NCBI GenBank assembly: GCA_034670405.1 | Contig: JAXDDX010000188.1 | Span: 558,001-622,000 of the forward strand | DNA: 64,000 nt | DNA from: Hoplostethus atlanticus | Lineage: Eukaryota; Chordata; Actinopteri; Trachichthyiformes; Trachichthyidae | Direction: 5' to 3' | Shown here: in pieces, positions 1-46,800 of the stretch | Numbering within the stretch: position 1 is the first letter of the stretch | Layout: the number at the start of each line of letters is the position of its first letter | The notes under the pieces: generated by a model | Told to the model about the DNA's origin: nothing | The model's database searches: none | Seen by the model: the letters and a program-made list of their open reading frames with translations, nothing else | Program-made: the position numbers and the translations under genes

Positions 1-1041
1 TCGGTAGCGGATGCAGAGAACAATAATTTCAGTGGCGAATTATCACAGCGGCAGTGAATACAGCTGACAAACATTGTAACTTAACTAACGTTGGCAAAGC
101 TATCAAAAAAGAAGAGCATATAGCAAAAGTGCAAAACTCTCTTAAAAAAGTCTTTATAAACTCTTAAATTTGGTGTCAGGTGTATTTTTTTTTTATTTTC
201 TGCATTAGTGTTTTACATTACTGCTCTATTTTTTGATATTCAGAAACTTTTCGTTTCATTATTTTTGAAAGCATCTTCGCTTTACGTTTTTTTTTTTTTT
301 TTTTACATGTGCCTCAGACTTTTGCACAGTACTGTATATGTATCTCTTCCAGAGGATGAATAGCAAGACCCACTGTGAAAGAGCCCTAGAGCTACTAGCA
401 GCCCACATGAAACAAAACACCAACTTTATCTACTTTAACAAGTGTGTTGAAAATAGAGGTCGACTGACTAATGTGTCGGTGTGAGTTGATTAGAGAGCAA
501 ATTATGTTCTATAGCACTGAAAATAGAAAATTGCCTGTAATGTAGTAATTCCCTGATGCCGTTTGCAGCATCTAAGTATGAGCATGAAGGCTTTTCAAAT
601 GTCTGCTATATGCCATATGGCCATTGTGAAAAGCCAAGGAGGCCACCTTGCAAGCAATAATTGAATCCTCCATTCTATGCATTTATTTCAGTGACATCAC
701 ATTTCTTGATGGATTAAGAAAGAAAGCGTGCAAAATGGCAATTGTTTTGTCCAGTCCACCAAGTTCACTAGGAAGTTAGAGCAGCACTGTCATAATCTTT
801 AATTACCAGGGTGGAAATATGTACAGGACTGGGGGGCTGAGAGGATTTTATTTTAGAAAAACCTGGAAAAATGCCTGACCCAAACTCAAGAAATGAAATG
901 AGAAATTGAGCTTGAGCCAACCTGAGCCTAATGTATCTAGTTGGATGCATGTTGAGTTGGGAATACAGTTAAGCCAAATTCTGCATTCGGTCAGTTTTAG
1001 TTATTGGTTAAGTCACTGAGGACAATGCCAGCACTGCCTAC
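1..1041 (-). other. pbx3: pbx3 intron 6 (partial)
   Basis: Left-edge intronic DNA, AT rich, with a T tract near 285-303. Apart from a Tc1-like terminus ending near 340 I see no gene. No plausible further pbx3 exon is visible in this piece. Confidence 0.7.
170..342 (+). mobile_element. Tc1/mariner-like element, terminal remnant
   Basis: An AT-rich stretch runs into a T tract and then GCCTCAGACTTTTGCACAGT. This closely resembles the abundant fish Tc1-like terminus that reads GCCTAAGACTTTTGCACAGT. The left part is indistinct and no transposase frame remains. The call rests on the terminal motif alone. Confidence 0.5.
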
Positions 1042-1207
1042 CTGAGTTGGGTGTAGCAGGAGAGTTGGCTTGGCTGCTCTGGACGGCGGCGGCTACTGCA
1101 TGGGTTGCCGTTACAGCTGTCTTGGCCGCGTAAAGATTGGCCTCCTCCTGGAACTTGCCGATGTTCTTCTTATACCGGATCCTCTTGTTGCCAAACCAGT
1201 TGGAAAC
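1042..1207 (-). CDS. pbx3: pbx3 coding exon 6 (recognition helix and post-homeodomain)
   Basis: A 166-bp exon for residues 281-335 plus one base. It begins [18 protein letters not shown], the homeodomain recognition helix with the Trp-Phe-Gly-Asn core that binds DNA, then [34 protein letters not shown] and PNS. The acceptor is CCCCAG/GTTTCC and the donor AACTCAG/GTAGGC. The final G carries into the next exon, which in PBX genes begins the Ser/Gly-rich tail and is often alternatively spliced; that exon lies left of position 1, so the gene is cut by the window edge. Confidence 0.95.
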
Positions 1208-2639
1208 CTGGGGTAGGGAATAGAGAGAAAAAGAAAAAGAGAGAGAGAAATTGCCTCAGATATTATCCATCCCAGTGATTATCAATCAATCATGGCATTC
1301 AGCAATTTTTGACGCAGCAGATCCAACTGTTTTGTCAGACCAATCAAATCTGTTTTCTTGGTCTCATTGTATTACTTTCCTATATGTGAACATGTCAGCA
1401 AGACCATACGGAGAAATTGGATGTTAGTGTTTCACTGCCATGCTTTTAATGGAAACTAAACATAGGGCACAAATTGATCATGTATACATGTGTGCTGTGG
1501 AGTATGTTTGTAGAAATCACTTTTTATTTCATAGTGGCATGACATCCAAAGCACCATGAAGAAACAACCAAATCAACATTATACTGGAGATATGTGTGTG
1601 TGAAAGAGGAGCACTATGGTTAAAGGTAGGGTAATGTTTATGACTGGAAGTGATCCAGGTCATCTACACAGGGCTTGTAAAGAGCAACCAAGGATGGACA
1701 ATAACAGCATATGACAGCTTAAAGGTCACTGGTCAGTATGCATGTGTGTGTGTATGTGTGTGTAGGGGTGGTGGTCTCGGTGTGTGTGCGCAGTGACATT
1801 TACCAAACAACTCTCTCTAGAATGAAATTGCCTCCACTGTCTTTTTCAAAATGCCTCCTTTTCTCTTCACTAACTTAAGGGTCAATAGGTAATTAGCATA
1901 GGAAAATACAATATAATACAGAATTATAATGGCAATTTTAGCCGACTTTAGTTATACTGCTATTACTGAATGTAATACTTTAAAATTAGAATTTACATTT
2001 TCCAGTATTCCAATACCAGTATTCTCTGGATTCATATTTATATATCCCCTAATGTCTGTGTGCTACAGAAGCCGCATTTCTCTTTCAATATTTATTATTT
2101 TAACACATGGTAACTGCAGCCTGTTTCCATATCAGTTTTGTACTTATAGTTACAAAAAGCAATGCACTGTAATTTCGCATGATATTCTACAAATCTAGGT
2201 AAACTGGAGGTGGAGCTCACATGCCTGAAAAAGGCAGTAGTTTGAATTGAAATAGCACAGTGGAATGTAAGGGTATGAAGGTTGGGATGGGGGAAATGGT
2301 CATAGACACTTGCTTTCAACTCATGACTTCCTGAGTTTAATTCCCAACTCATGCAAAGAAGTTTTCTGCTGTGAGTAAAGTTTCCTTTGTCATTCACATA
2401 ACCAAAAGTGTAGGTACCTAAAGCTAACCCTAACCATAACCAAAGTTGTTTTACTTGCCTAACCTTAACCAAGATTTTTAGTTCTTTGCTGCTTAGGTCC
2501 TTATATGAACATTTGAGTTTTTTCTACACTTAGGAGAAAAAAACCTCTTTGTAAACCATCTCCATCATCCATCAGATGTCTAAGTTATCGCAATCAAGTT
2601 ATTTATTTATTTATAGCTGTGTTATATCACCTGGGTTCA

Positions 2640-2945
2640 TTGCTATGTAAAGTCATGTAGCATCTGCATAATAGTAAAAGAGAATCCCATATGGTTAATA
2701 TTACTAGAGAGATGTAAAGTGAAAATGAGAGCACCTAGAATTGAACCATGGGGGATGCCAAAATGGTTATTAGAATAGGCAGATGTGTTACCATCTAGAA
2801 TGACAAACTGAGATCTATTATTTGTGAATGACACCAGTTAAGAGAACTACTGCGAGGCCAGTGATATTTTCAAAATAGTCCAGGAGCATGCTGGAATCAA
2901 CAGTAGGCTTCATCAAAGGCTGACACTTAGAACAAGGAGTACAAA
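2640..2945 (-). mobile_element. LINE (CR1/L2-type) reverse transcriptase fragment
   Basis: On the minus strand the translation carries NNRSQFVILDG, then FGIPHGSILGALIF, matching the RT block usually read as G(V/I)PQGS(V/I)LGPLLF. A reading-frame change then leads to FYYYADAT, a decayed form of the catalytic F.CYADDT box. Upstream, LSVSL, MLLDYFENITGLA-like residues match the block before it. Stops and frame changes show it is a dead partial copy; both ends are missing. Confidence 0.75.
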
Positions 2946-5007
2946 CTGAAGTACAACTGATACAAAGCCTTGATCTGTGGCTAATAGCAGGTCACATGTT
3001 CCTTTGATCACAGCTGTCTTAGAACTGTGATGTAGTGAGGCCAGATTGCAGGAGGTCACATATATTATTTGTGAAGAGAAAGTAATTAAACTGCAGGGGT
3101 ATAACTTTGTAGTACTTTTGTGAGAAATGGGAAATCTGAAATTGATCTGTAGAACTTCGGAACTTCAGGGTTGAAGTTGAGCTTCCATAATAGTACTGTA
3201 CCTCTGTTTTGAATTAAAAAAAAAGAGAATTATTTACAATAGTAAGTAGATTTGGGCTGTACAGAATTGTATTTAAATATCCCATTACATCTAAATTGTA
3301 TTTAAATATAATTGGATATTGTTCATAATGGGATGTCACATCATTGTTTCATGATTGAAGAATAACAAAAGTTTAGTTTTTTTGACAACTGCACAAATCT
3401 CTCACAATTAAGTCCATCTTTTTCTCAGCTGCATATTTCTTTAAATAGAAAACATAGTGCTGTAAAACTGTACACACCCGAGACCGACGTTTCATAAGAC
3501 GGATGACTTTGTGAAATAATGAGAAAGCGAGAGAGATGGAGAGAGGGGAGAGAAAGAGAGACAGAGATACTAGAGAGATGAGGTGAGGTAAGGGGAGGCA
3601 AGATGTATTGTGTCATGCTGGGACCTGACAACTATAGCTTCTCTCTCCAGCTCACTGAGAGAAACCACACAACTGCACTCAATAATTTACAAGTGCATAC
3701 TCTCCTCATTTCCATTCTGCCCTCCTTCCTACTCCTCCTCTTGGGGCGAATACTTCCCCCCCTGTCAGGCCTGTTGGATTGTTCCCCTTTTATACGACCT
3801 AATGGATAGGGCCTCACCTTGCACAACCTCCCCTGTGGAAAATTCAGATTTGTGTCTTGAGATTGTTTGGTTTTAAGTACTGGTCTAACTAGAGAGAGAG
3901 AGTCTAAGGATGGGATCAGTCTTTAAGTTTATGCAACTGCCAATACCAAAATGTTTAAATCTGTCCCATCATTTCATCATCAGGTAGATAAAGAACCTGA
4001 AAGTTGTGTTGTGATAAATCTGAAAGAAAATGACACTGAAAGTCATGAGCATAGATCCAACAGCTATTGCATCAAACTGAGATTAACATCTGTAATCTGT
4101 AACTGTTTGATTTTTTCATTCCGACATCTTTAGATTTCATGTACTTGCATGTAATACTTTGCAACCAGCTATAGTATATTTTTGCTCAATTACTACAAAT
4201 GATCGATTCAGAGATTTTTTTTTTACCTTGTTTGTTGTGTGTTTCACTATATCATAGCTGATAGCAAATAGATGAAGACACAAAAGACGCTAACTTACAT
4301 GGACTTTGAGTACATGCTTCTTAAGATTGATAATTGGCCAACAATTTTGCTATGTTGATTAAACATATTATTATTATTATTATTATTATTTATTATTTTT
4401 TAATTTAAACCTAGAAACACCATTTCAATGTCAGATCGCTTGTCAAGAATAATCAGAAAATGTATTAAATTATTGATCATATAGTTAGTATAGGTACAAA
4501 GTGACCTTATACATAATATACATAATATACTCCTGTATGCTTATGCTTATGCTTATACTTCCTGTATAACAATACAGTAAGGATGCAGCATCTGGTGGAT
4601 TTTTGCATTGCAGTTGTGTAAGGTACAGCTCTTGGCTTTGGTGAGAGTCTTAGGTTAAATAAGACTCCCTTCAAGGCAGAACTGGAGTTGGATGCCATCA
4701 TTGGTGTTGAGGGACTTGTGAGAGAGAAGTGTGATTGCTGCTAGAAATAGCCTGAAGATTACTGGGGGAAGTAAGCGTCCTCGCATCACCCTCATGTACA
4801 CTGGGGAGGACAGACTGCATCCCATCAGCAAGTACAAATGCCGTCATGGAGCCATTTAAGAATGTTGACCGTTTTAAGAGGGACATCAAATTCTTCCTTT
4901 GTTTCCTATGCAACCATGATGAAACATCAAATATGTCCCTGTGTATTATTGCCATTAAACCAGTAAAAGCATTAAATAATAAAATGAATAATAATATAAT
5001 TTTTTTA

Positions 5008-5031
5008 ATTATTATTATTATTATTATTATT
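5008..5031. repeat. (ATT)n microsatellite
   Basis: About eight ATT repeats in AT-rich DNA, a possible 3' tail of an adjacent decayed LINE. A similar shorter ATT run is at 4369-4390. Confidence 0.8.
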
Positions 5032-6954
5032 TTACATTATCTCATTTCTAGTGTTTGTAGTTTTAGTGTGTAAAAACTGCAGTAAAAAACATGGAAGGAA
5101 GAAAAAAGGCAAACCACAGTAAATGTATAATTACCGCCTTTGCTTTCTAACATTTTAAATGTAGTTACTACAGTTACATGGCATTGCATTGTTTACTGAT
5201 GGCTGGAATTGTCAATATTAATATTATGCAACAGTTATTGATTGCGGAATAGGTTACATTTTATATTGGAAAGTGATTGAGGAACAGCTTAGCTAAATAG
5301 TGGCTATTGAGATGACCAGGGAATAATTTTCAGAAAAACAATTAGCTTGTTATCCAGGTTTGTAAGCTAGTAGAAAGCTAGCTAGCAAGCTAATTTGTTA
5401 CTCGTTATTCGGGCCACATTTTGTAAGGTAAGAAAATGTTTTAACTTGTTTGTAAAAACAATATACTGTTTATACAAAAAAAGTTAATTATTAACAATTC
5501 ATTTGTAGTTACTAGCCTTTGTATTTTATACTATTTTATTGATGCAAAGCCAGCAGTAAACAACAGCGCTGTCATTACCTTTTGCGTGGGTTTAAAAATC
5601 AAAGGTCGCGGTTAGAATTTACCTTTCATTTCATCAAAAATAATGACCATGAAATGCTCTTTTAAATGCCATTTTTACAGTTTTAATGCTCATACGGTTT
5701 CTGGTCTTTAGCTGTTTTTTTGCAAGTTTGGTTTCATTAACTTGGGGTGTTAGGCCAAATAGTGCGACACGTCCACCAGTATCACAGAGCATAGAGATGC
5801 CACAACTGTTTCTGCATGCCAATTTTTTCAACCTTGCTTATGGTGATCCCTCTTTCGCCACAAGTACATTTTGCTTAGATTACTTCTGCTGCAAGAGTAG
5901 GTGCAGCTAAACACCACTTAAGTTTAACTGGATACAACATGAGAGAGCGTGCATGCGTGTGAATATCACGTGTACATTCACAATGCGTGAGAGTGTGGAC
6001 TGCCTGTCGCTATGGCTGTCCAATCAATGCACCAGATATTAAATGAAAAAAATACAGCTACTTAACATTAAAATCGTTGCATATACAACTAGGCAGACAT
6101 GATGATAGACAGCAGATGAGGAGAGAGAATTGTGACATACCTGTGACACTGTGATGCTGCTTCCCCCGCCCTGAGGGCAAAAAAGAATGGGCTTTTTTAC
6201 AGTACTGGACTCTGCAGGCCTAACACTCCACACCCCCACCCCACACACAACATACACACACACACACATTCGAAGCTGCATGAGTTGACAAGTCAGATAG
6301 AAAGAGAAATGTGGGATGGGCAAACCTATGCTAATTTTAAGATGCAAACGGAATTAACTTTTGGAAGTGGTTTATCACACAAGAGGTATAAATAAGAATA
6401 TCTTGAGGGGTTGTTTGAAACACAGAATAGAGCATTCCAGAAAACAACGATAGGATAAACAGTAATGCTCGTGTAGGATAAAAGAAAATGTATCCGACAC
6501 CCAAGTGTGGGCTAAAATTGTGTTGGCAGGAGGTGAGGAATGGCGGCCACCTACGCAGATGCCTACACAGATCACCCCTGGTTTTTGTCAGCACGTTAGC
6601 ATGTTAGCGCTGGCCTAGTGCAGCAGCTATAATCCAGCAACTCACGCTTCAGTTGGTGTTTTCTCGATGCTGTCTCTGTGTCACAGTGTGCGTGAGGCTG
6701 AGCGGGTCTGACACAGGACACACACACACACACGGCAGGTGAACAACGGGTGGGTGTTGGTGGGTAGGGTGGGGGGTGGTAATGATGACGCATTCATGAT
6801 GCATTTTGCTCCCTGATGACCACAAGCTTCCACCGAAATGAATCAAAAAAAGGAGCTGGCAAGTGCTATGTACCTTTTTTTTTTTTAAAGATGTTTATTC
6901 AAAGAAGGGTTGCTTAGCATGTTCCTTTTCTTTTTCTAAGCTTTGTATTCATAA

Positions 6955-8872
<1,918 letters not shown>

Positions 8873-26236: not shown

Positions 26237-26536
26237 ACTAGCATCCATGGGCTAAACTGTGGCAGAATTGTTACCATAGAAACGTATGTAGCTAGCATCC
26301 ATTGCTACACTGTAGTAGAATTGTTACAATACATATGTAGCTAGCATCCATGGCTACACTGTAGCAGAATTGTTACCATAGAAATGTATGTAGCTAGCAT
26401 CCATGGGCTAAACTGTGGCAGAATTGTTATCATAGAAACATACGTAGCTAGCATCCATTGCTACACTGTAGCAGAATTGTTACCATAGAAACGTATAGCT
26501 AGCATCCATGCTAGACTGTAGCAGAACTGTAACCAT
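26237..26536. repeat. Minisatellite, six ~50-bp units with higher-order pattern
   Basis: Six consecutive copies of a unit beginning CTAGCATCCAT and containing ACTGT(A/G)GCAGAATTGTTACC and ATAGAAACGTATGTA. Units 1 and 4 share the variant CATGGGCTAAACTGTGGCAG, and units 2 and 5 share CATTGCTACACTGTAG, so the array looks like two rounds of a three-unit block. Unit 6 is degenerate. Confidence 0.92.
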
Positions 26537-26833
26537 AACAAGGAAAACAAATCTGTTAAGACTGGCATTCAGCCTCTAACCAGCAATCAAATGTTACGTG
26601 CTCCCTGAATAAAGTAAAAGTATTAAAAAATCTTCCATGCTTCTAACCTCGGTTAGCCAAGTGTTGTTAGCCATGTCTTTTTTCCACAAGGTGTCACTAG
26701 TTATTTTGATTAGTTACCAACAAAAACAACCAGAATTCTTGACAGCAGAGTGACATGATTAGATGTGAAACAGCGATCTGTTATTTAGAAATACCTGTGT
26801 TCATTCAGAATTCAGATCAGAATTGAGTATTCA

Positions 26834-29175: not shown

Positions 29176-29993
29176 AAACATAGTCAACATAGTAGTTAGG
29201 TTTTAGTGTCAGTCACACAGACTCAAAGAACAAGGGCTTCTTTCTAGACTTACTACTTTGCACCAACGTTCAACAATCATACAGGTAGAAATCCATCATA
29301 GAAGAGGAAGAGACACCAATTCTTCCTCCAACAGCTACCACTGCCATCACTCTCTCCACCTACATTTAAAACCCACAGTTGATGATGCATTCATGTCTAA
29401 TGAGAGTTAATGTAAGTATAAGCTTCCGACTGGGAAAAAAACATTCATGTCAACCTCCTAGTGGTAATTCCAAATAGGAAATATGGGAACTTTTGGAAGG
29501 CTCCATTATCTCCCACCCAACGGTACAAATAATGGAAGGGTGTCAAACATGGCTGCCACAAATAAACCAGTCCACAGTAAGAAAAATAATAACTACTCAT
29601 ATTGACACTAGTACGCTTCTGCACAATTTACTCTGTTCATGATTAACTAGAAATACCTGCTGCAGTTTGTTTGGTTGACAAGGCAACTTGTTAAGGAGTT
29701 GTTGCTATGGAGCTAGCTCGCAATGCCATTTGCCATTGCAGTAACATTTTCATGGTCTACCGACCTGTCAGTCATTCTCTAAGGCGGGACGATGTTTCAG
29801 TACCAACCGCTGTTGGCAGTTGTGTGAGTAGAGTGAACAGGGGTCCGTTCCAAGAAGCAGGTTTAACAAACTCTGAGTCTAACCCTGAACTCTGAGTTGA
29901 TTAACTCATAGATAGGAAACTCTGGGTTTTCGGTTCCAGAACGGCTGATCTGAGTTAGTTCAATCAACTCTCGGTATGTTAACCCTGAGTTAA

Positions 29994-30963
29994 AGGACAA
30001 TTCCGGGATTTTTAAACCTGGCCTCTATATCCACAAAATCGCCTATTATACCGCAAAATAGGTCCAAAAAGTTTCGGAATTGCTCCGGTAGATTGGCTCA
30101 GTCGGCAGTCGCGAAACGGGCTCAATGGCTGCAACGTAATCTGTCGGGGCATAGCCGTGCGGTCAAAGTACGTCCACTAAAAGTGCTTGATTTTGCCACT
30201 GACAGGCTCAGATTGTTATTCGTGTGTCTGACAAGTGTCTGACAACATTACTGAAAGGATCGTTACATTTCCAACAACTCTGAACTCTCAACTCTGAAAT
30301 CTCGCGAGAGTTGTTGCAGGAAGAGGACGTGGAAATGTGACAAAGGTGGTCTATGAAAGCAAGAGGCTTGACTTGTTGCAGGAAGAGAATGGTGGAAACA
30401 TAAATCAGCGTTGGAGACGTGTGTTGGGGTATAGAAAGCGTATTTTAGAGTATTTGTTTTTCCCAAAGATAAAAAACAACAACAATGGTTCGTTTTTGCG
30501 CATTTCCGAACTGTGCCAACAAAATGTTGAGGAAGACTTTGCGCAGCTTTCATAGAATACCTTTGTCAGGTTTCTACCGTCCTCTTCCTGCAACAAGTGA
30601 ACCCTCTTGCTATAGACTACCTTTGTCCATCGAGCGGGACTTCTCCTTGAGCTAGACTTTAGTTTTCTGGTTAAAAAAAGGTCTATTTCTGTAGTGATCC
30701 TTTCAGTAATGTTGCCAGACACTTGTCAGACACACGAATAACAATCTGAGCCTGTCAGTGGCAAAATCAAGAACTTTTAGTGGACGTACTTTGACCGCAC
30801 GGCTATTCCCCGACAGATTACGTTGCAGACATTGAGCCCATTTCGCGACTGCCGACTGAGCCAATCTACCGGAGCAATTCCGAAACTTTTTGGACCTATT
30901 TTGCGGTATAATAGGCGATTTTGTGGATATAGAGGCCAGGTTTAAAAATCCCGGAATTGTCCT
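29994..30963 (+). mobile_element. Kolobok-type DNA transposon inserted in the Harbinger element
   Basis: A 970-bp element flanked by TTAA on both sides (29990-29993 and 30964-30967). It has 268-bp terminal inverted repeats (29994-30261 and 30696-30963), almost identical, beginning AGGACAATTCCGGG. Between them a plus-strand frame starting at 30485 reads MVRFCAFPNCANKM then LRSFHRIPL, the C-x4-C and SFHR(I/F)P start of a THAP zinc finger. TTAA duplication plus THAP points to Kolobok rather than piggyBac or P elements. The transposase body is missing, so it is non-autonomous. Confidence 0.85.
30485..30565 (+). pseudogene. THAP zinc-finger N-terminus (Kolobok remnant)
   Basis: ATG at 30485 opens MVRFCAFPNCANKM and LRSFHRIPL. 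THAP domains begin M(P/V)..C....C.N and contain (S/F)FHR(F/I)P; both signatures are in place, with Cys5 and Cys10 as the first two zinc ligands. The frame then runs into the inner inverted repeat, so the second Cys, the His and the rest of the domain are absent. Only a start of the ancestral gene is kept. Confidence 0.7.
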
Positions 30964-31027
30964 TTAAGCGCGTGCCTGACGACAATAAAAAGCCATCATC
31001 AATGGAGGTCCGATACTACGATTCACC

Positions 31028-31197
31028 ATGGCAACCAGCAAGCAGAAAAGGTCGTCGTACGTCACCCCACTGGAATTGAAAGAGCTACTACGTGCATTTG
31101 GGGAGTATGAACAAATTTTCAAAAAGAAGAGCAACACAGCTGCAGCGGCAAAGGAGAGGGAATTGGCGTGGGAGAGAATCGCTGCCCGAGTCAATGC
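31028..31197 (+). pseudogene. Harbinger Myb/SANT-like gene, exon 1
   Basis: ATG at 31028 gives MATSKQKRSSYVTPLELKEL, then RAFGEYEQIFKKKSNTAAAA and KERELAWERIAARVNA. This matches the helix-turn-helix Myb/SANT-like DNA-binding protein that accompanies Harbinger transposases (the K-SNT...W..IA..VNA pattern). It ends at a donor AATGC/GTACGT, leaving two bases (GC) for the next exon. The hAT element lies 22 bp into the intron, so the splice sites themselves survive. Confidence 0.8.
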
Positions 31198-31219
31198 GTA
31201 CGTTTGAATGCAGTAGTGT

Positions 31220-32527
31220 TAGGGGTGGGCGGTATGGCCTAAAATGTATATCACGGTATATTTTGAATTTTGGACGGTAACGGTATATATCGCGGTATAT
31301 TTGTTTTTCTTATAATAATAATAAAAAATGCTTTGGGAGCAGTACAAGACTCTGGGATGGTAACAATTTATTCCCGGGGGGCTAACTATGAGGTTTCTAC
31401 TAGGCTCATTAGTATTCTGTAATCTGTATATTATGACAAAATTGACATTGAACTTAAGTGTTTATGAATGTTTTATTGTGCAAAACTGCACTGTATTAAA
31501 TATAAATAGCACCTTATATGCAAACTTTTTTCCAAAATAGGTTCTGAACAATACAAATAAATATAAAAAAAAAAAAAAAAACATAAAAATGTAAATTTCA
31601 AGTATTCCAATACTTCAAATAACTTCTACTGTATATAACAAAAACTTCAAAGGTTAGGCAACATGCCAAGAAAATAATTATAAAGATAAATAGCACATTA
31701 TAAGCAAACTTTTTTCCAAAATAAGTTGGCAGTTTGGCTGAAGTATTTTCGACCTGGCATCACATACCTCGGATCCAGTGTTTTGATCAATGCCTTAAAC
31801 CTGTTTGTATAGAAACCATGTCCTTACATAGGTACTCCGTTATGGAATGTGTAATGTCCTTCCACCGCTTGCTTTTTTTGTCATACGGATAGCCACTGGA
31901 AAATGACTTGGCTAGCGACGTCTGCGTTGTGGTTTTTCGTTTAGCACCACTTGCGGAGGGACTGCTTGTGTCTGCGCGCATCCTAGTACTCTCTTCATAC
32001 TCGCGGACATGTTTTGTTTTGAGGTGATAAAAGAGATTGCTCGTGTTACCACCGCCGGCAACAACTCTCGCTCGACATTGCTTGCAGATAATAGTTTTCT
32101 GCTCAAGTTCCGACTTTTTAAACACAAACCACGTCCAGATGATGGACGAAGCACCTTTCTTTCTAACTAATTCTTCTTCTTTGTTTGCATCGGGAACGGG
32201 AGCTCCCGCATCATGCTCGCTGCCCTCCATTTCACCGTGCATCTTCAGAAAGCATGCGTCTGTTTACGTCGAAGTTTACGTTGTACTACTCACGTGTTTT
32301 TTTTTAGTAGCCAATAATGGACCAACTTTTTCACATCGTCTTTTTCCACAAACTAGTTTATTATCTTTAAATGGCAGCGCGCAGTTCGCTAGCTTTGTGT
32401 GTTACATTTGCAAATGTGAAAAGGTATTTTTACATTCAACCTGCCTTCTACCGGTACATCCGGTAGAGTCAAATCTCTACTTTGGCACGGATTTCTACCG
32501 GTTCAACCGTTATACCGCCCACCCCTA
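31220..32527 (-). mobile_element. hAT transposon inserted in the intron of the Harbinger Myb-like gene
   Basis: A 1,308-bp element with inverted ends TAGGGGTGGGCGGTAT (31220) and ATACCGCCCACCCCTA (ending 32527). Flanking 8-bp sequences AGTAGTGT and AGTATTCA (31212-31219, 32528-32535) agree at five positions, fitting an aged hAT target duplication. The minus strand carries a BED-finger transposase start. The catalytic part is replaced by AT-rich DNA towards 31230-31720, so it is an internally deleted copy. Confidence 0.82.
31787..32242 (-). pseudogene. hAT transposase N-terminus with BED zinc finger
   Basis: Frame of 151 codons from ATG at 32242. Residues 36-80 form a BED finger: W-T-W-F at 36-39, Cys53 and Cys56, GGGNTSNLFYHLK, His73 and His78. 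A Ser/Thr-rich linker and YPYDKKSKRWKDITHSITEY follow, as in ZBED/hAT transposases just before the RNase H-like core. After residue 143 the family pattern continues in another frame (ALIKTLDPRYVMPGRKYF) to about 31735 and then stops; the catalytic domain and dimerisation tail are gone. Confidence 0.82.
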
Positions 32528-32622
32528 AGTATTCATTTAACATTTAACCAAACTTTCTTATAATATTACCTACATGTGAGAAAGCGGTGGAATGGTATTG
32601 GGAAAAAAATATTTTCATTTAG

Positions 32623-32737
32623 GTGCAATCCCATGGGCGCAAAGCGCACTTGGCAGCAGCTGAAAATGAAATATAAAAACATACTTCAAATGGTGTACTT
32701 GGGGCGGCAAATTAGAAAGGCAGATCTAGAAATTTAA
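32623..32737 (+). pseudogene. Harbinger Myb/SANT-like gene, exon 2
   Basis: Acceptor TCATTTAG/GTGCAATCCC. Joined to exon 1 in phase it gives (A)CNPMGAKRTWQQLKMKYKNI then LQM, the usual continuation of this Myb-like protein, followed by RQIRKADLEI and a stop at 32735-32737. Residues resembling LLEHKLE follow the stop in the same frame, so the stop is probably a premature one in a longer family tail, and the middle part after the KYKNI block is deleted. Confidence 0.8.
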
Positions 32738-32849
32738 TTACTGGAACATAAGTTAGAGGTGGGTGCATGGTAACAGATGAAAAATACTAACTGTTGCTTT
32801 TGTATTTGTAGGAAATAAAGAAGACCAAATGAAATGTGTCTTTATTTGA

Positions 32850-33029
32850 CTGCTCGGGGTGGTGGTAGCTTAATCCGTGAACTGTAAACGACATATTATA
32901 TCTCGGACAGCTCTTCCGTCCTGGACATAGAACATCTAATCGGGGTCTCAAAATCCTCTCCCGACATAAGGCTATGCGAATTACTTCCGCTTGAATATCG
33001 ATCGGGTTACCGAGGAAAGGACACGCCAT
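32850..33029 (-). pseudogene. Harbinger transposase N-terminal stub
   Basis: Minus-strand ATG at 33029 begins MACPFLGNPIDIQAEVIRIA then LCRERILRPRLDVL, a good match to the conserved N-terminus of fish Harbinger nucleases (MACPFL..P.D..A...R.ALRRER..R.R.D.L). The later sequence loses the family pattern within about 50 codons, and the DDE catalytic domain is absent. It is convergent to the Myb-like gene, the standard Harbinger layout. Confidence 0.75.
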
Positions 33030-33917
33030 GTCCGACAGCTGCTTCAGGTTCAGCAGAGGGAGGAGACAGGGAGAAAGTCAGGGTTTGTTAAAGAAAACCT
33101 GCCAGCGAGCAGGTTAGGTTCACAGAGTCAGTTACCATGGTAACTGAATCAGAGTTTGAGTTACCTCTCTTTCTGGAACGGAAAACCCAGAGTTTCCCTC
33201 ATCTCAGGGTTAACAAACTCAGAGTTTTCACTAAACCCGCTTTCTGGAACGGACCCCAGAACAAATAATTTAAAGTTTAGCTGAACCCTCTGCCCTCAAC
33301 ACTACAATGGATTTCCATCTTTTGGGTTCATGTGAGGCAGTAGACTATATGAGACCAGTGTAGATCCGCAAAAAGGTGGGTGGGGGCCAAATAATATAAT
33401 AACTGTGTGTTTGTGTATTGACATAACGATAGGACCGGAGTGGGACTCATTTTCAGCGTGTCATGCTGCAGTGTCATGCCCACTGCCTGGGAAGGGGAGG
33501 GTGTGTGTGTATGAATGCACAACCCCAACCCCTGAGACAAAAACTTGTTTGAATTAAACTACTATTACTTTGAAATTCTGTTTTGTATTGTCTACTTTTT
33601 TCTGCACTTTGAACTTATTCAATAATAATAAAATGCAGGATACTGGTGATGGTCGTAGTAGTAATAGCAGTATCTGTCCTCCTGCTCTGCCTCACCAATA
33701 ACTCAAAAAACAACAGCAACGAATGAGATTCTTACAACACAACAATAACTTTTGCAAAGTCAATGCGCTGTTGCATATCGATGGGCATATTCTAACCATT
33801 TTGCTTAAAATTACAATCATTTATACATAGGTCAACAAACCCTTTAACAGCACAGCACTAATAAGGTTGTGCAAAATGCCTCAGTATTGGGCAACTCCTT
33901 CTGTGCTGTACCTGTCT

Positions 33918-46329: not shown

Positions 46330-46800
46330 TGTAGGTAGGGGAGACCGGGGCGCTGTGGAACAAGGGCACTTTGGGACAGACTAAAAATAGAACGTTTCCA
46401 TTGGTGAAACATGCTGTGTGGTGCCATGAAATCCCAGCTAGGACCGCCTCTTATCAGGTCTGTGAATCATTCAAAGCATGTTTCACCAACTACTGATTGA
46501 ACAATGAATCCTCGTCGCTGATTGGACGAGCTGTCTGTCAGTCTGGGTGAATAGGGAAACCCACTATACCCCAAAGCAACTACTGCAAACCTTCGGCCGC
46601 AAGGTTACAATTAACTGTTCACAACAATAAGGGTTTCTTCGTGAAGGTCTAGTATCGTTGACTACTTCTTCGCTCTTCTTCTACTGCTTTGAGCGCTGCA
46701 AAATAGCTACTTCTGTTCCTCCCAGACAGACAGACAGTTCGTCCAATCAGCGACAAGGAATCATTGTTCAATAAGTACCAACACTTTCCAGTTTATTTCA
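46330..46800. repeat. Inverted-repeat element starting GGGGAGACCGGGGC
   Basis: Starts with GGGGAGACCGGGGCGCTGTG, a phrase seen at ends of fish repeats. It holds a 52-bp inverted pair (46497-46548 and 46721-46772, about 90% complementary, including GTCGCTGATTGGACGA) around a 172-bp spacer. A second perfect 14-bp pair, TTGGTGAAACATGC, is at 46401-46414 with its complement at 46477-46490. Probably a foldback or MITE structure; no transposase present. Confidence 0.6.

Follow-up and report, generated by a model that had tools for sequence, protein, structure and literature searches.

Three sets of transposon ends lie between positions 29840 and 33257 of the window (the whole stretch of 64,000 nucleotides that was analysed, G000:C188:558001-622000), which raises the question whether they belong to a single element or to an element that was interrupted twice, and in which order the parts arrived. 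When the sequence is read and its repeats are listed, the nest, its ends and its repeats are found at the coordinates that an earlier note on this DNA had given, and I put the probability at about 0.95 that a NuwaI-type outer element came first and that a Kolobok-like and, independently, a hAT element then inserted into it at separate sites. The genome searched comprises 633 Mb in 1161 contigs. Pieces of PBX protein match the minus strand in two regions, 50159-49531 and 8830-1040; since these matches lie on both sides of it, the nest apparently sits within one large intron belonging to a gene of the pbx family. The same apparent intron contains a tandem array at 26238-26537 (5.8 copies of a 53-bp unit, 84% matches). 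At 46491-46777 of the window there is a segment of 287 bp whose inverted ends measure 57 bp and are 91% complementary; it resembles a small transposon of the hairpin type.

The outer element and its target

The outer element runs from 29841 to 33256 (GGGTCC...GGACCC) and has CAG on each side, the left copy of this 3-bp target duplication (29838-29840) being equal to the right one (33257-33259), while its inverted ends (29840-29865 and 33232-33257) are 88% complementary. Three parts of it are found on the plus strand: a left arm starting with GGGTCC (29841-29993), a middle part (30968-31219), and a right part with GGACCC at its end (32531-33256). A search with 29800-30100 as the query gave 2643 first-look candidates, of which 40 places were scored, and the family is probably larger than these 40. 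The 39 listed places other than the window, all of which were fetched, match the left arm with 95-99% identity, and in most copies the middle part follows directly after the left arm. Among the 20 copies given for comparison, 30964-31219 is matched in 19 (88-98%) and 32528-33257 in all 20 (about 91% or more, in some of them in pieces).

Target duplications were counted in 20 of the 39 other copies and in the window; four of these lack the right end, and among the 17 in which both ends are present, 12 (counting the window) show matching 3-bp duplications. All twelve are CAG or CTG and none is an AT-rich triplet such as TAA, on which count an AT-rich-target PIF/Harbinger element sensu stricto was rejected. 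PMC4482050 describes the NuwaI group of the PHIS (PIF/Harbinger-ISL2EU-Spy) superfamily by CWG target duplications and a Myb/SANT open reading frame. Because its target duplications are CWG, the outer element would more precisely be a member of this group than an AT-rich-target Harbinger, and both have the CWG 3-bp duplication and a Myb/SANT-domain protein encoded within. Unlike the NuwaI group, the copy in the window is an internally deleted, non-autonomous derivative that is split by two inserts; at most an N-terminal remnant of its DDE transposase is left, and its membership was judged by the target duplications and the Myb/SANT frame. Three of the five two-ended copies with mismatched duplications (L015, L020 and L025) are close neighbours on contig C39. 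On this contig five copies of the family (these three, L064 and L065) occur within approximately 61 kb, at about 1854685-1915807, and the left flank is nearly identical among L015, L020 and L025, which suggests local duplication.

The outer element carries a Myb/SANT open reading frame, which is interrupted in the window copy. Exon 1 (31028-31197, plus strand) is followed by a predicted splice donor at 31198, and exon 2 (32623-32737, plus strand) runs through the stop; spliced together, they match the Pfam family Myb_DNA-bind_5 with an E value of 9e-14 over positions 1-70 of the 78 in the profile. The intron between them (31198-32622) is a prediction, of which the GT and AG letters were checked. 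On the minus strand, the list of open reading frames gives a further stretch at 32787-33029 (MACPFLGNPIDIQAEVIRIAL...), which may be what is left of the N-terminal end of the outer transposase; at E<=1 it matches nothing in Pfam or PDB. When the surroundings of three outer copies were read over a greater length, they yielded no complete transposase and one longer copy, L079, in which a stretch resembling 32787-33029 is found. In L079 the left and right parts of the family lie about 7 kb apart (328-7847), and the transposase-like stretch is somewhat longer. PIF/Harbinger elements require a Myb-like protein plus a transposase, according to PMC2836001 and PMC9710019; because both are needed and a recognisable transposase domain is absent, the outer copy would not have been autonomous.

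Empty sites and the Kolobok-like insert

Neither of the inner inserts is present at these sites in any of the 39 fetched outer-family copies, which are paralogues from the same genome and not copies from other teleosts. The idea that the inner segments regularly belong to the outer family was therefore rejected. The outcome that the earlier note had named as speaking against it (every copy of the family carrying them) did not occur among these 39 copies, and they bear out its claims that both inserts are nested in a Harbinger-type element and that this element came first. Matches that extend beyond 29993 are limited to the window among the 40 scored of 2643 candidates, and most of the outer copies run from 29993 straight into 30968. 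At the Kolobok site a single TTAA is present in 29 of the 39 copies, 27 of them fully contiguous and two (L009 and L060) with a small adjoining loss; another seven are contiguous with CTAA, and three (L015, L020 and L025) are locally rearranged. Removing the Kolobok-like segment together with one TTAA from the window gives GAGTTAAG..., which is found exactly in 28 of the 39 others. The copies with CTAA are L059, L063, L064, L065, L071, L074 and L076; this variant would be the mark of a subfamily without the Kolobok target. The hAT site is uninterrupted in 35 of the 39 copies (22 with AGTAGTGT and 13 with AGCAGTGT); it is missing in L010 and L066, and L074 and L077 diverge ahead of it.

The Kolobok-like segment is a non-autonomous foldback of 970 bp (29994-30963, plus strand, with the ends AGGACAATTCC...GGAATTGTCCT) between a left TTAA at 29990-29993 and a right TTAA at 30964-30967, the target duplication thus being present at both ends. 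Its arms, with TTAA included (29990-30267 and 30690-30967), are 97% complementary. As single-stranded DNA the segment folds with -427.7 kcal/mol, whereas 20 shuffled versions of it average -115.3 (z -43.75), and because this fold is far stronger than that of the shuffles, an inverted repeat by chance was rejected. An open stretch at 30485-30571 on the plus strand (MVRFCAFPNCANK...SFHRIPLSG in the list of open reading frames) presumably resembles the start of a THAP domain, a likeness seen by eye, and has no Pfam match at E<=1. Comparison of this stretch with the Pfam profiles found no transposase in the insert, which for Kolobok would be one with DDE, THAP and H2CH motifs.

TTAA is a target common to Kolobok and piggyBac, and it is TTAA combined with RR..YY ends that distinguishes Kolobok, as stated in PMC9587614. 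The insert could come from another TTAA-target superfamily such as piggyBac, given that the target is shared, that its transposase was not recovered, and that the fifth base (C) of its AGGAC start falls outside the AGGRR motif of the frog T2-MITE (PMC6004289). However, its termini AG...CT (5'-RR...YY-3') obey the Kolobok rule of PMC9587614, the table of full-length frog Kolobok ends in PMC6004289 includes AGGAC starts, and the internal open stretch looks THAP-like by eye, the THAP domain being usual in Kolobok transposases according to the same source. I regard an origin from piggyBac or the like as very improbable, and piggyBac was set aside on the RR..YY end rule. A Kolobok label fits the TTAA target, the RR..YY ends and the THAP-like start seen by eye, and would apply on these grounds. 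With Kolobok elements and the non-autonomous, presumed-Kolobok T2-MITE of the frog (PMC6004289) the insert has the TTAA target and AG.. ends in common, and perhaps the THAP-like coding start seen by eye; full-length frog Koloboks start with AG at the TTAA, some of them with AGGAC as the insert does. Unlike these, the insert is mostly foldback, with arms of 274 bp, and the AGGRR motif of T2-MITE is broken at the fifth base. L074 contains, elsewhere in its 3 kb, a short foldback between TTAAs (2083-2475), which starts with AGGGGAATTCC and is distantly related to the Kolobok-like element, about 80-88% similar to it in the longer matching pieces.

The hAT insert and its incomplete target copy

The hAT element (31220-32527, 1308 bp, minus strand, with the ends TAGGGGTGGGCGGTAT and its complement) has a perfect 17-bp inverted repeat, TTAGGGGTGGGCGGTAT, at its ends (31219-31235 and 32512-32528). 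It lies inside the predicted GT-AG intron 31198-32622 of the outer Myb-like gene, in agreement with the earlier note. Its coding remnant on the minus strand (31787-32242) holds a BED zinc finger (Pfam zf-BED, E 4.5e-7), the catalytic family of hAT transposases is absent among the Pfam matches of this remnant, and the element is an internally deleted derivative. With the hAT superfamily it shares the 8-bp duplications of its family, short terminal inverted repeats and the BED zinc finger; unlike that superfamily, the copy in the window measures 1.3 kb, is without a recognised catalytic domain, and has a right target cut to 3 bp.

The hAT family was sampled by the left end only; of 311 candidates, 40 places were scored, one of them being the window. 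From 29 non-window loci that were fetched, 24 have both ends, and their 8-bp duplications are exact in 21 and agree at 7 of 8 bp in 3. In the window the flanks agree at 5 of 8 bp: the left copy of the target, AGTAGTGT at 31212-31219, marks a site that is undisrupted in 35 of the 39 other outer copies, and on the right an AGT remnant (32528-32530) is left, 5 bp being missing compared with the empty sites. With the hAT removed, the window reads AGTAGTGT followed by AGTATTC, where other copies have AGTAGTGTATTC or AGCAGTGTATTC, their last letters occasionally changed. The insertion, as previously claimed, and the 8-bp habit of the family thus stand, whereas an intact 8-bp duplicate does not. Because the hAT family normally duplicates 8 bp, the right copy of the target has probably lost 5 bp. 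GTA is present twice, 5 bp apart, so that the placement of the loss is ambiguous and slippage between the two triplets is perhaps its cause.

The flanks in the window by themselves would not prove an 8-bp target, and their overlap with the empty site consists of GT, no more and no less. Alternatively, then, the hAT may have made a 2-bp duplication (GT) with one extra base, or its insertion may have deleted part of the target. I consider this unlikely, as a 2-bp target was rejected on the exact 8-bp duplications of 21 of the 24 other copies, the remaining 3 agreeing at 7 of 8 bp, and the extra A is simply the first base of AGT and requires no additional event under an 8-bp duplication that was later shortened.

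Order and age of the insertions

The whole nest might also have transposed as one unit, with both inserts already aboard when the outer element reached the pbx intron. Intact outer ends and matching CAG around the entire 3.4 kb would make such a composite mobilisable in principle, and if it did move as one, a Harbinger-type element would have been the vehicle for two unrelated transposons. However, a second composite is absent from the 40 scored places of each boundary query (2643 and 311 candidates): the left Harbinger/Kolobok boundary is matched across by the window alone among 40 scored of 2643, and the whole Harbinger/hAT boundary query by the window alone among 40 scored of 311. Joint transposition is thus highly improbable.

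Separate insertions into the outer element are the preferred reading. An internally deleted, non-autonomous element of the NuwaI, CWG-target PIF/Harbinger type would have inserted and duplicated CAG. Later, its left arm would have received a Kolobok-like foldback at a TTAA, and the intron of the remnant Myb-like gene, in an independent event, a hAT that is a deletion derivative, after which the right copy of the 8-bp hAT duplication would have lost 5 bp, the timing and mechanism of that loss being my reconstruction. All three presumably moved by cut-and-paste, with transposase supplied in trans by other copies.

The nesting gives no mutual order of Kolobok and hAT, because they occupy separate sites and divergence fails to resolve their ages. 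Private substitutions number 9 of 1133 positions in the outer copy compared with 35 others (L066, L072, L074 and L077 were left out, having no right part or being too long), while for the hAT, compared with 24 others, they number 18 of 1236. With 24 random others the private rate of the outer copy averages 0.0085. Fisher's test of 18/1236 against 9/1133 is not significant (p 0.17). The terminal branch of the hAT measures 0.0239 versus 0.012 for the outer copy, for which the first 20 of the 39 copies served as the sample; the five hAT loci that lack the right end (L040, L046, L048, L053 and L057) were left out of both the branch and the substitution counts. The longer branch and larger number of private substitutions of the hAT, which was sampled by its left end, are opposite to what would naively be expected of a younger insert. 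Between the two arms of the Kolobok-like insert, 7 of 274 positions are different, which is an upper bound, as the arms need not start identical. Since all these values amount to roughly one to three percent, the insertions cannot be put in order by divergence, and such signal as it gives does not favour a younger hAT. The relative dating of three superfamilies that was read into this locus does not follow, as each inner insertion is independent of the other and the nest gives an order of copies rather than of superfamilies.

The nest is real and the core of the earlier reading right, and its kind is ordinary, nested transposons being common. Dating by interruption of nested transposons is established in mammals, as PMC2517846 describes, and as there, an older element is here split by younger ones. 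In contrast to the interruption analysis in that paper, the present case concerns a single locus, with empty sites taken from paralogous copies. The general view is unchanged, as both nested transposons and interruption dating are long established. What this locus adds is a clean, boundary-exact set of nested DNA transposons with empty sites confirmed within the same genome, and its markers (the two insertions and the 5-bp loss) could be scored in related species to date the inserts.
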